A stretch of DNA of 6,382 bases. Source: JBGPLH01 sp041486365 [NCBI: Thermodesulfobacteriota bacterium] (GTDB taxonomy: Bacteria; JAUYMQ01). Shown here in pieces: positions 218 to 6,382 of this stretch. A program made the position numbers and the translations under genes. The notes beneath the pieces were generated by a model. It did not search any database and was not told the DNA's origin. It worked only from the letters and a program-made list of their open reading frames with translations. Within the stretch, counting starts at the first letter, position 1, and every line of letters begins with the position of its first letter. Where the stretch lies: the NCBI GenBank assembly GCA_041486365.1, contig JBGPLH010000195.1, positions 1 to 6,382 on the forward strand, read 5' to 3'.

Positions 218-1264
218 TCAGGCCAGCCCGAGCCGGCGGGCGACCTCGAGGCTGGAGAGGTCCGGCGGGGCGCCGCGCGACTCGGCCTCCTTCACGAGAT
301 CGCGGATCGCGCGGTTGTAGGGGGCGTGGAGTCCCTGCGACTCCGCGAGCCGCACGATCTCGCCGTTCAGGTACTCGATCTCCGTCGGGTGGCCCTTGGC
401 CAGGCTCTGCCACGTCGACCAGCGCGCCTCCGGATGGATCTTCACCAGCCACCGGACGACGATCCGGAGGAGGAAGGGCGGGAGGTTCATTGACAGGATC
501 CGGAGGAGACGGCTCGGATCGACCTTCGGGATCGTCTCGAGCCGGATCCCCGCCTCGCGACACACGCGCATCCCCTCCGCGAGGAGCGCCGCGGACACGC
601 GCCGCGCCACGGGGTCGGACACGCCTTCCTCGATGGACTGGCCGGTGAGCGCGCCGTAGCCGTTGTTCAGGTTGATGAGGAGTTTCGACCAGAGCAGCCC
701 CTCGATGCGCGGCGTCACGTGAACGGCGAGCCCCGCGCGCATCGCGTCGCGGCCGAAGGTCGCCATCTCGGGACCGAAGCGCCCGTCGCGGGATGTGGCG
801 CCGACCACAATTTCGCCCGACGTGGTCAGCAGCACGCGGCCCGGCTCGAGGAAGACGGCGTTGAAGATCACGCTGCCGCCGATGCCGCGCCCGGCGCCGA
901 GGGCCTCGTCGATCAGGTCCACGTTGCGCACGCCGTTCTGCAGCGACAGGATCGGCGCGCGCTGCGGCAGGAAGGGCGCGAGGGCAACGCAGGTGGCCGC
1001 CGTGTCCTGCGACTTCACGCACAGGAGCACAGCACCCGCGTCCTTCACCGCGTCGGGCGATTCCGCGGCGTCGAGCCGGACGCGGAAGGGACCGACGAGC
1101 CCGCCCACCTCGAGACCGGCGCGGCGGATCGCCTCGACGTGATCCTTCCGCCCGACGAGCGTCACGGGGAGTCCCGCGCGGGCGAGCATGCCGCCCACGA
1201 AGCTCCCCACCGCGCCCGCGCCCACCACGACGTATCGCAGGTGTCCTCCCGGGGTCCGGATCAT
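218..1264 (-). CDS. 2-dehydropantoate 2-reductase family protein (PanE/ApbA-like)
   Basis: The family reduces ketopantoate to pantoate with NADPH on the way to coenzyme A; paralogues act on other 2-keto acids. Numbered from the ATG at 1264, residues 9-37 form the Rossmann strand and glycine motif (GAGAVG, 15-20), with Arg39 where NADPH-binding members carry a basic residue. Lys84 (CVKSQ) and Asn110 (SLQNGV) are the usual N-domain active-site positions. Lys194 (WSKLLINLNN) is the catalytic lysine and Glu295 (TEIEYLNG) the substrate-binding glutamate. At 348 residues it is longer than the roughly 300-residue E. coli enzyme, owing to a hydrophobic and basic insert at about 250-280, seen in a long subfamily. 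The usual SS..D motif reads STWQS, so the Asp is Ser287. The first 8 residues precede the normal family start: a CTG at 1240-1238 with GGGAGG just upstream may be the true start. It is transcribed divergently from the SDR gene. The fold is secure; a role in pantothenate synthesis is not proven. Confidence 0.88.
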   Translation of the reverse strand: MIRTPGGHLRYVVVGAGAVGSFVGGMLARAGLPVTLVGRKDHVEAIRRAGLEVGGLVGPFRVRLDAAESPDAVKDAGAVLLCVKSQDTAATCVALAPFLPQRAPILSLQNGVRNVDLIDEALGAGRGIGGSVIFNAVFLEPGRVLLTTSGEIVVGATSRDGRFGPEMATFGRDAMRAGLAVHVTPRIEGLLWSKLLINLNNGYGALTGQSIEEGVSDPVARRVSAALLAEGMRVCREAGIRLETIPKVDPSRLLRILSMNLPPFLLRIVVRWLVKIHPEARWSTWQSLAKGHPTEIEYLNGEIVRLAESQGLHAPYNRAIRDLVKEAESRGAPPDLSSLEVARRLGLA

Positions 1265-1275
1265 CGCGAAGGCCC

Positions 1276-1304
1276 TTTATAGCCGCGCCCGGCGGGCACG
1301 GCAA
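1276..1304 (-). promoter_or_regulatory. Sigma70-type promoter of the panE-like gene
   Basis: On the minus strand there is a -35 box TTGCCG (1304-1299), a 17-bp spacer and a -10 box TATAAA (1281-1276). Transcription would start near 1269. That leaves only about 5 nt before the ATG at 1264 but about 28 nt, including GGGAGG, before the CTG at 1240. No experimental start is available. Confidence 0.6.
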
Positions 1305-1319
1305 CCGCGTCCGCGGTTG
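1302..1319. promoter_or_regulatory. Dyad operator candidate between divergent promoters
   Basis: CAACCGCGTCCGCGGTTG is a perfect inverted repeat with 8-bp arms and a 2-bp centre. Each arm contains the TTG of one of the two divergent -35 boxes, so a bound dimer would cover both. The dyad axis (1310.5) is exactly midway between the two -35 boxes and between the two -10 boxes. The regulator is unknown. The TetR protein encoded at 4036 has no visible copy of this motif in its own control region. Confidence 0.55.
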
Positions 1320-1345
1320 AAAGGCGAGGGGGGATCGGCTATCGT
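1317..1345 (+). promoter_or_regulatory. Sigma70-type promoter of the SDR gene
   Basis: A -35 box TTGAAA (1317-1322), a 17-bp spacer and a -10 box TATCGT (1340-1345) would give a transcript starting near 1352 with a leader of about 60 nt. The leader can form a 6-bp stem, GCCGCG (1348-1353) with CGCGGC (1378-1383). The ribosome binding site is AAGGAG (1399-1404), 7 nt before the ATG. Confidence 0.6.
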
Positions 1346-1411
1346 GTGCCGCGTTTTGGGGGCCCGGGGCAAGGTCCCGCGGCGGACTATCGATAACCAA
1401 GGAGTCTCGAC

Positions 1412-2329
1412 ATGCCGAACATCAGACTCGACGGCAAGGTGGCCGTCGTGACCGGCGCCGGCGGCGGCCTCGGACGCGCCCACGCGCTCCTGCTCGCCTC
1501 CCGCGGGGCCAGGGTGGTGGTGAACGATCTCGGCGGCTCGGTGGACGGGTCGGGGAAGAGCGCATCGATGGCTGATCACGTCGTCGAGGAGATCCGCAAG
1601 GCCGGCGGCGAGGCCGTGCCGAACTACGACAGCGTATCCACGGCGGAAGGCGGCAAGACGATCATCGAGACGGCGGTGAAGGCCTTCGGCCGGATCGACA
1701 TCCTGATCAACAACGCCGGGATCCTCCGCGACAAGTCGTTCTCCAACCTGACCGAGGAGATGTGGGACGCGGTCGTGGCGGTGCATCTGAAGGGCGCCTA
1801 CAACTGCACGAAGCCCGCCTTCGATCTCATGAAGGCGCAGAACCACGGGCGGATAGTCTTCACCACGTCGGGCACGGGGCTGTTCGGCAATTTCGGGCAG
1901 ACCAACTACGGCGCCGCCAAGCTCGGGCTCGTGGGCTTCGCGAACTCGCTCCGCCAGGAAGGGGCGAAGTACAACGTCCACTGCAACACGATTGCCCCCA
2001 TCGCCTTCACCCGGATGACCGAGAACCTCATGATGGGCGTGCCACCGGATCTCTTCGCGCCGGATCTCGTCTCGCCGCTCGTCGCCTACCTCGTGAGCGA
2101 CGACTGCGCCCTGAACGGCCAGGTCTTCGTGGTCGGCGGCGGCATGGTGGCGCGGGCTTTTATCGGCGAAACGCGAGGGGCCTACACGAACCACAAGAGC
2201 GCCCCGCCGACGCCCGAGTGGGTGTCCGATCACATCGACCAGATCATGGACGCGAAGGACTACACGATTCCCCAATCCGTGCAGGAGGACACGCTCAAGG
2301 TCGTCCAGCTCATGCAGAAGAGCAGCTAG
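1412..2329 (+). CDS. SDR-family NAD(P)-dependent oxidoreductase, MFE-2/Hsd4-like
   Basis: This is a classical short-chain dehydrogenase of 305 residues. The cofactor motif TGAGGGLG is at 14-21. Asp39 at the end of beta-2 (VVVNDLGG) points to NAD rather than NADP. NNAG is at 100-103, and the catalytic set is Ser153, Tyr166 and Lys170 (YGAAK). Phrases such as VVNDLGG, NAGILRDKSF, GNFGQTNY and VHCNTIAP, plus a C-terminal extension of about 65 residues after the Rossmann fold, resemble the (3R)-hydroxyacyl-CoA dehydrogenase unit of eukaryotic MFE-2/HSD17B4 and actinobacterial Hsd4A. A role in beta-oxidation of a CoA-linked substrate is therefore plausible (inference). No hydratase or SCP2 domain is attached. 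AAGGAG lies 7 nt upstream of the ATG, and a good promoter lies at 1317-1345. The orphan secreted protein follows after 13 nt, probably in the same transcript. Confidence 0.9.
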   Translation: MPNIRLDGKVAVVTGAGGGLGRAHALLLASRGARVVVNDLGGSVDGSGKSASMADHVVEEIRKAGGEAVPNYDSVSTAEGGKTIIETAVKAFGRIDILINNAGILRDKSFSNLTEEMWDAVVAVHLKGAYNCTKPAFDLMKAQNHGRIVFTTSGTGLFGNFGQTNYGAAKLGLVGFANSLRQEGAKYNVHCNTIAPIAFTRMTENLMMGVPPDLFAPDLVSPLVAYLVSDDCALNGQVFVVGGGMVARAFIGETRGAYTNHKSAPPTPEWVSDHIDQIMDAKDYTIPQSVQEDTLKVVQLMQKSS

Positions 2330-3954: not shown

Positions 3955-3996
3955 GCGCCGGCACTCCGCGCCGGCGCGGACTGGCGCGTGATTTTT
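3955..3996 (+). terminator. Hairpin region with T5 run between the VOC and tetR genes
   Basis: Two mutually exclusive folds are possible. One is an 8-bp stem, GCGCCGGC (3955-3962) with GCCGGCGC (3970-3977) and a 7-nt loop. The other is a 6-bp stem, CGCGCC (3967-3972) with GGCGCG (3983-3988), followed closely by TGATTTTT (3989-3996). The second has terminator geometry for the VOC transcript, though its 10-nt loop is long. Confidence 0.4.
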
Positions 3997-4035: not shown

Positions 4036-4644
4036 ATGCGATACGCGAAGGGGCACAAGACGGAGACGCGGGGCCGCATCCTCAGGGCCGCGGCCCGGCG
4101 ATTCAGGGAGCAGGGGTTTCTCGGCGCCGGCGTCGACGACGTGATGCGCGAGGCGGGACTCACCGCCGGGGGCTTCTACGCGCACTTCGATTCCAAGCAC
4201 GCACTCCTGCGCGAGGTGCTCGCGCACGCGCTGCGGCAGACGCGCGAGGGGCTCTTCGCCGGGCTCGACGACGTTCGCGGCCTGGCCTGGCTCCGCGAGG
4301 TCGTGCGGCGCTATCTCAGCCGCGCGCACCGCGACGACGCTGCGGAGGGTTGCGCGTTGCCCGCGCTGGGCGCCGAGGTCGGGCGCATGGGCGGCGAGGC
4401 GCGAAAAACCTTCGAGGCGCATCTGCGCGATCTGATCGCGGAGGTCGAGAACAAGGCCCCCGCGTCCGCCACGCTCGACCCGCGAGATCGGGCGCTCGGC
4501 ACCCTCGCCCTCTTCGCCGGAAGTCTCATGCTCTCCCGCGCGGTCGCCGACCGCGCTCTCGCCGATCGCATCCTGCTCGCCTCCCGCCGGCTCGCGCTGG
4601 CGGGACTCGAAGAAGAACCCCCGTCCAGGGAGAAGAAGCCATGA
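4036..4644 (+). CDS. TetR/AcrR-family transcriptional regulator
   Basis: The product has 202 residues, the usual size for the family. The N-terminal DNA-binding domain spans about 8-55: helix 1 TRGRILRAAARRFREQG (11-27), then the helix-turn-helix VDDVMREAGLTAGGFYAHF (33-51) with the typical GGFYAHF recognition-helix end and Ser53-Lys54. The remainder is a helical ligand/dimer domain containing EGCALPALGAEVGR (104-117). This Gly-Cys motif is seen in the LmrA/YxaF-like branch of TetR proteins; Cys106 is the only cysteine. The start MRYAKGHKTETR matches the usual family beginning. The ribosome binding site is GAGG (4030-4033), only 2 nt from the ATG. The stop overlaps the start of the molybdoenzyme gene (ATGA, 4641-4644), so the two are co-transcribed and probably translationally coupled. 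It probably represses its own operon until an unknown, likely hydrophobic or CoA-linked, ligand binds (inference). Confidence 0.9.
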   Translation: MRYAKGHKTETRGRILRAAARRFREQGFLGAGVDDVMREAGLTAGGFYAHFDSKHALLREVLAHALRQTREGLFAGLDDVRGLAWLREVVRRYLSRAHRDDAAEGCALPALGAEVGRMGGEARKTFEAHLRDLIAEVENKAPASATLDPRDRALGTLALFAGSLMLSRAVADRALADRILLASRRLALAGLEEEPPSREKKP

Positions 4645-6382
4645 CCGGAACCTCCGACACGAAGGCCCCGTGGACATCCACCGCGTGCATCCTCTGCTCG
4701 AGGAACTGCGGCATCGAAGTGCAGGTGGAGGACGGCCACCTGCGCAGGATCCGCGGCGATGAGAGCCACCCGATCTCGGAGGGCTACGTCTGCCAGAAGG
4801 CGGGCCGACTCGATCGCTACCAGAACCACGCCGACCGCCTCACGACGCCGCTGCGGCGGCGTGACGACGGCGCCTTCGAGCCGGTGGACTGGGACACGGC
4901 GATCGCGGAGATCGCCGCGAAGCTCGTCGCGATCCGCGACACACACGGCGGCCGCGCACTCGCCTACTACGGCGGCGGCGGGCAGGGAAACCACCTCGGG
5001 GGCGTCTACGGGTCGGCGCTGCGCGCGGCCATGGGGACCCGCTACCTGTACTCCGCGCTGGCGCAGGAGAAGACCGGCGACTTCTGGGTGAACGGGAAGC
5101 TCTTCGGCCATCAGACCTGCCACGTCACCGAGGACGTCGAGCACGCCGACTTCGTGATCTTCATCGGCACCAATCCCTGGCAGGCCCACGGGATCCCCAA
5201 CGCCCGCGACACGCTGCGCGCGCTGGCGAAGGACCCGAACCGCAGGATGGTGGTGGTCGATCCGCGGAGGACGGAGACCGCCGCGCTGGCGGACATTCAT
5301 TTCCAGATTCGCCCCGGGACCGATGCGTTCCTGCTGGCCGCGATGCTGGGTGTGATCGCCCAGGAGGGATTGGAGAACCGCGAGTTTCTCGACGCGCGCG
5401 TGAACGGCTTCGAGGAGCTGCGCACGATCCTGAAGGAAGTACCCGTGGCCGATTACGCGGCCCGCGCGGGCGTGGACGCGGAGCTGGTGCGCAGGACGGC
5501 GCGGGGCCTGGCGCGGGCGCGCACGGCCTGCGTGCGGGTGGATCTCGGGATCCAGCAGAGCCTCCACAGCACGCTCAACTCTTACCTCGAGAAGACGCTC
5601 TTCCTCGTGACGGGGAACTTCGCGAAGAAGGGCGGGAACAACCTCCACACCTTCCTGCTGCCGCTCGTCGGCCACTCGGACCCGCCGGGGGAGGGAAGCC
5701 GCGCCTGGACCACGGCGGTGACGGGCATGCCGGAGATCGGGAAGCTCTTCCCGCCGAACGTGCTCCCGGCGGAGATCGACACGGATCATCCGGGGCGCAT
5801 CCGGGGGCTCTTCGTGGACAGCGCCAACCCGATGATGTCGGGCGCCGACACGGAAGCGTACCGGAAAGCGTTCGCGAAGCTGGAGATGCTCGTCGTGGTC
5901 GACGTGGCCTTCACGGAGACGGCGCGGATGGCGCACTACGTGCTGCCGGCGGCCTCGCAATTCGAGAAGTGGGAGGCGACCTTCTTCAACCTCGAGTTCC
6001 CGAAGAACTTCTTCCACCTGCGCAGGCCCCTCTTCCCCCCGAGGCCAGGGACCCTGCCGGAGCCCGAGATCTACCGAAGGCTCGTCGTGGCCATGGGCGC
6101 GTTGCCGAAGCGGATGCCGCTCCTGGCCGCCGCGGCGCGGATCGATCGGCGCTGGCCGCGTCTGCGGCTGTTCCCGCTGGCGCTCCGGGCCGCGCTCTCG
6201 CGGCGCCCGGCGCTCCGGCCCCTCGCGACGATGGTGCTCTACGACACGCTCGGACGCGCGCTCCCCGACGGGGCGCAGGCAGCCGCGGTGCTCTGGTTCG
6301 CCGCGCACCAGTACGCCGGGAAGCACGCCGAAGCCGTGCGGCGCGCGGGGCTCGCGGGCGGCGGCGCGGATCTCGGCGAGGC
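4641..6382 (+). CDS. Molybdopterin-bisPGD oxidoreductase, large subunit (3' end missing)
   Basis: The frame is open for 580 codons to the window edge; full members are longer and end in a MopB C-terminal domain not seen here. There is no Tat signal, so the enzyme is probably cytoplasmic. Residues 16-51 hold the [4Fe-4S] motif C-x2-C-x3-C-x27-C (Cys16, 19, 23, 51), as in the formate dehydrogenase/DMSO reductase superfamily. Cofactor-binding segments follow: FIGTNPWQAHG (174-184), VVVDPRRTET (204-213), RPGTD (224-228), LVTGNFAKKGGNN (to 334), DSANPMM (393-399) and HYVLPAASQFEKWEATFFN (432-450). The usual metal-ligand slot, 28 residues before Asp170, reads LAQEKTGDFW (140-149), without Cys, Sec or Ser. 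After about 480 there is a basic, Leu/Ala-rich helical insert, then LYDTLGRALPDG (533-544), which fits the long oxidoreductases found in actinobacteria and deltaproteobacteria. AGGGAG (4627-4632) is the ribosome binding site. Substrate and partner subunits are unknown. Confidence 0.9.
   Translation, partial: MTGTSDTKAPWTSTACILCSRNCGIEVQVEDGHLRRIRGDESHPISEGYVCQKAGRLDRYQNHADRLTTPLRRRDDGAFEPVDWDTAIAEIAAKLVAIRDTHGGRALAYYGGGGQGNHLGGVYGSALRAAMGTRYLYSALAQEKTGDFWVNGKLFGHQTCHVTEDVEHADFVIFIGTNPWQAHGIPNARDTLRALAKDPNRRMVVVDPRRTETAALADIHFQIRPGTDAFLLAAMLGVIAQEGLENREFLDARVNGFEELRTILKEVPVADYAARAGVDAELVRRTARGLARARTACVRVDLGIQQSLHSTLNSYLEKTLFLVTGNFAKKGGNNLHTFLLPLVGHSDPPGEGSRAWTTAVTGMPEIGKLFPPNVLPAEIDTDHPGRIRGLFVDSANPMMSGADTEAYRKAFAKLEMLVVVDVAFTETARMAHYVLPAASQFEKWEATFFNLEFPKNFFHLRRPLFPPRPGTLPEPEIYRRLVVAMGALPKRMPLLAAAARIDRRWPRLRLFPLALRAALSRRPALRPLATMVLYDTLGRALPDGAQAAAVLWFAAHQYAGKHAEAVRRAGLAGGGADLGE

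Follow-up and report, generated by a model that had tools for sequence, protein, structure and literature searches.

The window, meaning the whole stretch of 6,382 nucleotides that was analysed from contig JBGPLH010000195.1 of a Thermodesulfobacteriota bacterium, carries near its left end two genes that are transcribed away from each other, a ketopantoate reductase-like (panE-like) gene on the minus strand and an SDR gene on the plus strand (Table 1). The initial annotation of this DNA had named both from sequence alone, and profile and structure matches agree with it: the first gene falls in the panE family through TIGR00745, and the nearest entries for the second are the (3R)-hydroxyacyl-CoA dehydrogenase 2et6 and HSD17B4 (1gz6). 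The intergenic stretch between them covers positions 1265-1411 (147 bp) and holds two promoter-like elements, which face outwards, with an 18-bp perfect dyad at their centre.

Further features lie downstream of the SDR gene. Directly after it, positions 2343-2885 encode a protein of 180 amino acids with a hydrophobic, signal-like N-terminus (judged by eye) and a proline-rich tail, for which no Pfam or NCBIfam match was obtained at E 0.001. The last 4 bp of a TetR-family gene (4036-4644), whose best NCBIfam match is ScbR-like and below the cut-off, are also the first of a molybdopterin oxidoreductase gene (4641-6382), and these two genes likely form one operon. Between a glyoxalase-like gene and the TetR gene, GC-rich inverted repeats followed by a T run (3955-3988) scored as terminator-like and include a perfect 16-bp palindrome, TCCGCGCCGGCGCGGA, at 3965-3980. 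No riboswitch or other known RNA was detected in the window at Rfam gathering scores.

Table 1. Coordinates of the genes and predicted regulatory features at the divergent locus.
Feature	Position	Strand or axis	Basis or remark
Ketopantoate reductase-like (panE-like) gene	218-1264	-	Pfam ApbA, ApbA_C; TIGR00745 above cut-off
Possible Shine-Dalgarno GGGAGG for a CTG start	1245-1250	-	four bases before CTG 1240-1238
CGGC and -10 box TATAAA (1281-1276), panE-like promoter	1276-1285	-	first seven bases mirror 1336-1345
-35 box TTGCCG, panE-like promoter	1304-1299	-	promoter scan and shuffles
Perfect dyad CAACCGCG-TC-CGCGGTTG, candidate operator	1302-1319	axis 1310.5	sequence, repeat scan
-35 box TTGAAA, SDR promoter	1317-1322	+	promoter scans; TTG-GCTAT spacing the same or one base longer in 5/20 SDR relatives
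CGGC and -10 box TATCGT (1340-1345), SDR promoter	1336-1345	+	GCTAT 74 bp 5' of ATG
Shine-Dalgarno AAGGAG, SDR gene	1399-1404	+	read from sequence
SDR gene, HSD17B4-like (3R)-hydroxyacyl-CoA dehydrogenase type	1412-2329	+	Pfam PF00106; PDB 2et6, 1gz6 best

Promoters and mirror symmetry in the intergenic stretch

Two divergent sigma-70-type promoters sharing a perfect dyad had been proposed here, and the promoter and dyad coordinates given in that proposal match the raw sequence to the base, as does the axis at 1310.5, which is 6.5 bp from either -35 box and 29.5 bp from either -10 box. Hexamers of both kinds, on both strands and facing away from each other, are found at 1276-1345; the spacer is 17 bp on both strands, inside the 16-18 bp range, and both promoters score 9/12. 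In tests that, like all the symmetry and promoter statistics given here, were designed after the pattern had been seen, the intergenic stretch was shuffled 5000 times. A promoter scoring at least 9/12 appeared on the plus strand in 61 and on the minus strand in 84 of these cases, and a back-to-back pair of such promoters in none. The minus-strand -10 box, TATAAA, is the weaker of the two, without the final T, and a stricter scan that required T at the last -10 position listed the plus-strand promoter alone. The chance tests favour both promoters, and comparative evidence is added on the SDR side; the reading as two promoters is well supported for the SDR gene and likely for the panE-like gene.

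Transcription starts were predicted 7 bp past each -10 box, at 1352 (plus strand) and 1269 (minus strand), 83 bp apart. This would leave about 5 nt between the predicted panE start and the ATG at 1264, which TATAAA precedes by 11 nt. At residue 9 of the window's PanE-like protein, 12 of 20 distinct relatives (N-terminus aligned or extrapolated) have an ATG, and the corresponding codon in the window is CTG (1240-1238, minus strand). Judging from the sequence, the panE-like gene may start at this CTG behind GGGAGG instead of at ATG 1264; the leader would then measure about 29 nt and include a Shine-Dalgarno sequence. The other possible option is a start at ATG 1264 on a transcript with almost no leader.

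The dyad, of 8-2-8 layout, overlaps both -35 boxes and gives each of them its TTG. By itself it is unremarkable, because dinucleotide shuffling of the 147-bp stretch yielded inverted repeats with arms of at least 8 and a loop of at most 6 in 78/2000 cases (about 4%) and because the window is rich in such repeats (10 against 2.1 expected, five of them within predicted genes). Even with three mismatches allowed, the 18-bp sequence matches nowhere else in the window; at least one such match occurred in 27/200 window shuffles. An exact copy was looked for in 36 loci and found in none. The initial annotation had also drawn attention to a half-site inside the panE-like gene. CGCGGTTG does occur there, at 310-317; with an expectation of 0.5 copies for a window of this kind, however, this copy can be put down to chance and carries no meaning; the window holds no meaningful second copy of the half-site. 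As an RNA hairpin the dyad is not favoured (z -0.33 and -1.32), and the scan for terminator-like sites scored none there, which dismisses an intrinsic terminator or RNA hairpin at this place and makes a role at the DNA level likelier than one in the transcript. No published operator equal to the dyad was found for CGCGGTTG or, among the matches listed, for CAACCGCG.

The mirror symmetry extends beyond the dyad to a second block that had been overlooked. CGGCTAT occurs in the window just twice, once at either -10 box (plus strand, 1336-1342; minus strand, 1285-1279), and each copy is 25.5 bp from the axis. In shuffles of the intergenic stretch, blocks of at least 8 and at least 7 on one axis arose in 1/5000, and any symmetric blocks of at least 6 summing to at least 15 in 4/5000; no axis in the window other than 1310.5 has two blocks of at least 6 that sum to at least 14. 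Part of this symmetry follows from the presence of a promoter on either side. When the mirrored TTG and TAT were held fixed, five more symmetric bases per arm were seen in 0.25% of shuffles, and the further symmetry of both blocks (CGCGG and CGGC) in 4 of 200000 single-base shuffles. Overall, 25 of 45 mirrored positions agree; outside the two blocks the count is 10/30, against about 29% from base composition.

The gene pair and the SDR promoter in distant relatives

A regulon joining the panE-like and SDR genes, as suggested by the initial annotation, gained no support from distant relatives. The SDR gene was absent at E 1e-5 from all 21 distinct panE loci (L001-L021), whose flanks measured 1.5 to 5 kb, several ending at contig edges and one (L009) without the 5' side of panE. 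Conversely, a panE homologue was found in 0/20 SDR loci (L028-L047; flanks of about 1.5 kb, E 1e-3), these being the loci with the best E-values and fewer than all the matching genomes, and in 0/8 of the same loci in wider stretches of 8.9 to 16.9 kb (E 1e-6). To judge from these distant relatives, the gene pair is therefore not a widely kept neighbourhood. The relatives are distant (28-44% identity for panE, 54-59% for the SDR), and no close relative carrying the pair was found in the collections searched. With the panE protein as query, 9 loci were retrieved from genome contigs, the best E-value being at 40% identity, and viral contigs gave no match; among 242 plasmid records retrieved with the DNA of both genes, none covered 80% of the query.

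Sampled genomes were searched at deliberately strict limits, so that empty searches, which had no positive control, mean that there was no close relative among the genomes drawn. For panE, matches were obtained in 70/99 genomes from the phylum of G006 at 1e-3 (best 1.6e-53, at 37%), in 2/149 from the phylum of G009 at 1e-50 and in 1/251 around G001 at 1e-58, this one being G001 itself. None was obtained in the G008 sample (0/47 at 1e-50), the G003 sample (0/398 at 1e-58) or the class of G065 (0/148 at 1e-48). The SDR was matched in 34/198 genomes from the phylum of G006 at 1e-85, 1/249 from that of G003 at 1e-95, 14/145 from the class of G065 at 1e-100 and 0/100 from the phylum of G007 at 1e-75.

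The promoter of the SDR gene recurs in these relatives. TTGnnn-17/18-GCTAT is present within 200 bp upstream of the SDR gene in 5 of the 20 (L038, L039, L042, L046 and L047) and absent there from the other 15; the mean over 1000 shuffled sets was 0.077 and the maximum 2. The distance from GCTAT to the ATG is 69-90 bp in the five relatives and 74 bp in the window. As the five form about two look-alike groups (L039/L042/L047 and L038/L046), the independent evidence amounts to fewer than five cases. A perfect dyad (arms 4-11, loop 0-8) with its right arm ending in the -35 box was seen in 0/5 of them. The SDR promoter thus occurs elsewhere without the dyad, and the dyad, if functional, would be peculiar to the arrangement in the window.

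In the first of the two groups the promoter sequence reads CTTTGAAG...GCTATGTCCTA. In addition, perfect dyads rich in GC (arms 7-8) lie between the promoter and the SDR start in L039 and L042, about 38-71 bp before the latter, and L047 has one at 38. The dyads downstream of the promoter in L039 and L042 are perhaps leader hairpins.

GCTAT was also counted across 159 upstream regions of the related class, where 11 sense and 8 antisense copies give no clear enrichment; a TTG stands 17 or 18 bp before GCTAT in 4 sense copies and 1 antisense copy. Across 377,332 bases of that class, a set chosen so as to contain the SDR genes, five of the seven copies of TTG-17/18-GCTAT on both strands are SDR promoters. 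For this reason the motif is not established as a general -10 element of the lineage and may belong to the SDR promoter in particular. The firmer gain of the analysis is this TTG-17/18-GCTAT promoter ahead of HSD17B4-like SDR genes, in the window and in 5/20 relatives.

A candidate shared operator and its alternatives

The leading interpretation, which we hold tentatively, is that two ordinary sigma-70-type divergent promoters flank an operator particular to this lineage, with its centre at -41.5 relative to either predicted start. The 147-bp gap would contain two separate housekeeping-type promoters back to back, of the form TTG-17-gcTATnnn with CGGC before both -10 boxes, and the 18-bp dyad would most likely serve as an operator for a putative homodimeric regulator. 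A bound dimer would cover both -35 boxes and so block sigma region 4 at both promoters simultaneously. The distance of -41.5 is that of class-II activators; an activator of this type is possible at the dyad, but less likely than a repressor. Judged from the sequence, operator function is plausible, and the switching of both genes by one putative dimer, as originally proposed, is geometrically possible; co-regulation of panE and the SDR gene in one regulon is unsupported. In favour of the interpretation are the absence of a comparable promoter pair from 5000 shuffles, the rarity of the paired symmetric blocks (1/5000) and of the symmetry left beyond TTG and TAT (4/200000), the recurrence of the SDR promoter in 5/20 relatives with GCTAT at a like distance from the ATG, the near confinement of TTG-17/18-GCTAT to SDR genes in the related class, the likeness of GCTA at the -10 box to the Caulobacter RpoD consensus, and the hairpin and terminator results. 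Some findings weigh against this interpretation. A dyad as good is expected in about 4% of shuffles, it has no exact match in the 36 loci and its half-site no meaningful second copy in the window, and the five relatives with the SDR promoter have no dyad at its -35 box. GCTAT is not clearly enriched upstream of genes in the related class, and TTG-17/18-GCTAT is there nearly restricted to the SDR genes. TATAAA is without the conserved last T, and unless panE starts at CTG 1240, its ATG follows the predicted transcription start by just about 5 nt. No regulator gene stands beside the panE-SDR pair, the nearest being the TetR gene at 4036. The TetR protein of the window was considered as the regulator and judged unlikely: no copy of the half-site, even with one mismatch allowed, was found upstream of its own gene, and the protein more likely serves the molybdopterin oxidoreductase operon, because its gene overlaps that gene.

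It is possible, if somewhat doubtful, that both promoters are real and the dyad is no operator. The mirrored TTG and GCTAT would then reflect the same kind of promoter on either side and the CGCGG arms a GC-rich coincidence, and with starts 83 bp apart the polymerases would at most crowd each other. Repeats as good or better in 78/2000 shuffles, an SDR promoter kept without the dyad in relatives and a gene pair without an adjacent regulator gene all suit such an account, whereas the symmetry that remains once TTG and TAT are fixed counts against it, whether measured as five extra bases per arm or as both extra blocks. That the SDR promoter alone is real is unlikely. In this case the minus-strand TATAAAGGG would be an AT-rich leader or a weak Shine-Dalgarno sequence (AAAGGG, eight bases 5' of ATG 1264), and panE would be transcribed from elsewhere; the missing last T of TATAAA, its position 11 nt from the ATG and the confinement of comparative support to the SDR side are in keeping with this. 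However, a minus-strand match of 9/12 was reached in just 84/5000 shuffles, the minus side has CGGCTAT at the mirrored place, and a start at CTG 1240, where 12/20 relatives have ATG, would restore a normal leader.

Other accounts start from the symmetry itself. It is decidedly unlikely that the double promoter works as a fully mirror-symmetric unit, with one dimer at -41.5 relative to either start affecting both polymerases alike, through dual class-II activation or through joint exclusion from both -35 boxes; the operator arms would then double as the two -35 boxes, and geometry would set the product ratio of the two genes. There is only a slim chance that GCGGTTG-16-CGGCTAT is the site of an alternative sigma factor, or of another gene-specific factor, read on both strands. 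The extended boxes are identical on the two strands, TTG-17/18-GCTAT in the related class is nearly confined to SDR genes (5/7 copies in the 377,332 bases), and GCTAT is no general upstream signal there, all of which would be expected of such a site; against it, the relatives share little beyond TTG and GCTAT, which suit the housekeeping consensus. We know of no alternative-sigma consensus that suits this sequence. An ancient inverted duplication, by which an inverted copy of a promoter about 45 bp long came to serve the divergent gene, is very improbable. Two identical blocks in exact mirror position, and the recurrence of the SDR side in relatives without the divergent gene, could be so explained, but agreement at 10/30 mirrored positions outside the blocks is about the base-composition expectation, so that no residual similarity between the halves is left. 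The duplication was rejected on this ground, symmetry beyond the two blocks being at background level.

If the dyad is an operator, as the leading interpretation has it, the locus would be a compact and exactly symmetric case of one dimer acting on two polymerases that face away from each other, and it would connect the ketopantoate reductase-like enzyme of this GC-rich bacterium with its hydroxyacyl-CoA dehydrogenase. At present the layout is a common one, and the functional link between panE and SDR is unproven.

Comparison with known systems

A shared operator between separate divergent sigma-70 promoters is a textbook layout. The window resembles it in having two -35/-10 sets that face away from each other and a dyad positioned over both -35 boxes, and differs from it in that the pair is without a regulator gene and the candidate axis is exactly equidistant from both promoters. 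No divergent-promoter layout matching that of the window was found in the literature among the matches listed.

Bidirectional promoters of E. coli, in the portion of the study available to us, share one -10 element and have starts most often 18 bp apart, and separate -10 and -35 boxes fall outside the class so defined (Warman et al., 2026; PMC12825309). The window resembles them in its symmetric sequence and in its predicted divergent transcripts. A shared -10 bidirectional promoter in this sense was nevertheless rejected for the window, where 58 bp separate the two -10 boxes (1281 and 1340) and the starts are predicted 83 bp apart (PMC12825309, as far as its available text defines the class).

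At the level of single promoters, the Caulobacter RpoD consensus is given as TTGaCgS / GCtANAWC in the available part of its source (PMC8144410). The window shares with it the TTG of the -35 box and GCTA at the -10 box; the plus-side bases after GCTAT fit partly, and the lineage differs. DriD of Caulobacter is described, in the accessible text of a preprint, as binding a 20 bp pseudo-palindromic site that overlaps a -35 box between divergent genes, activating one direction and leaving its own gene unregulated (PMC12340889). In the window, by contrast, one dyad overlaps both -35 boxes. ThnR, a LysR-type activator, uses a separate site for each promoter and DNA looping at close divergent catabolic promoters, according to the part of the report at hand (PMC4834489). 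Close divergent promoters under one regulator, putative in the window, are a point of likeness with ThnR, whereas the window has a single central dyad. Taken with these systems, the panE-SDR intergenic stretch is a neat example of a familiar arrangement and not a new kind of switch.
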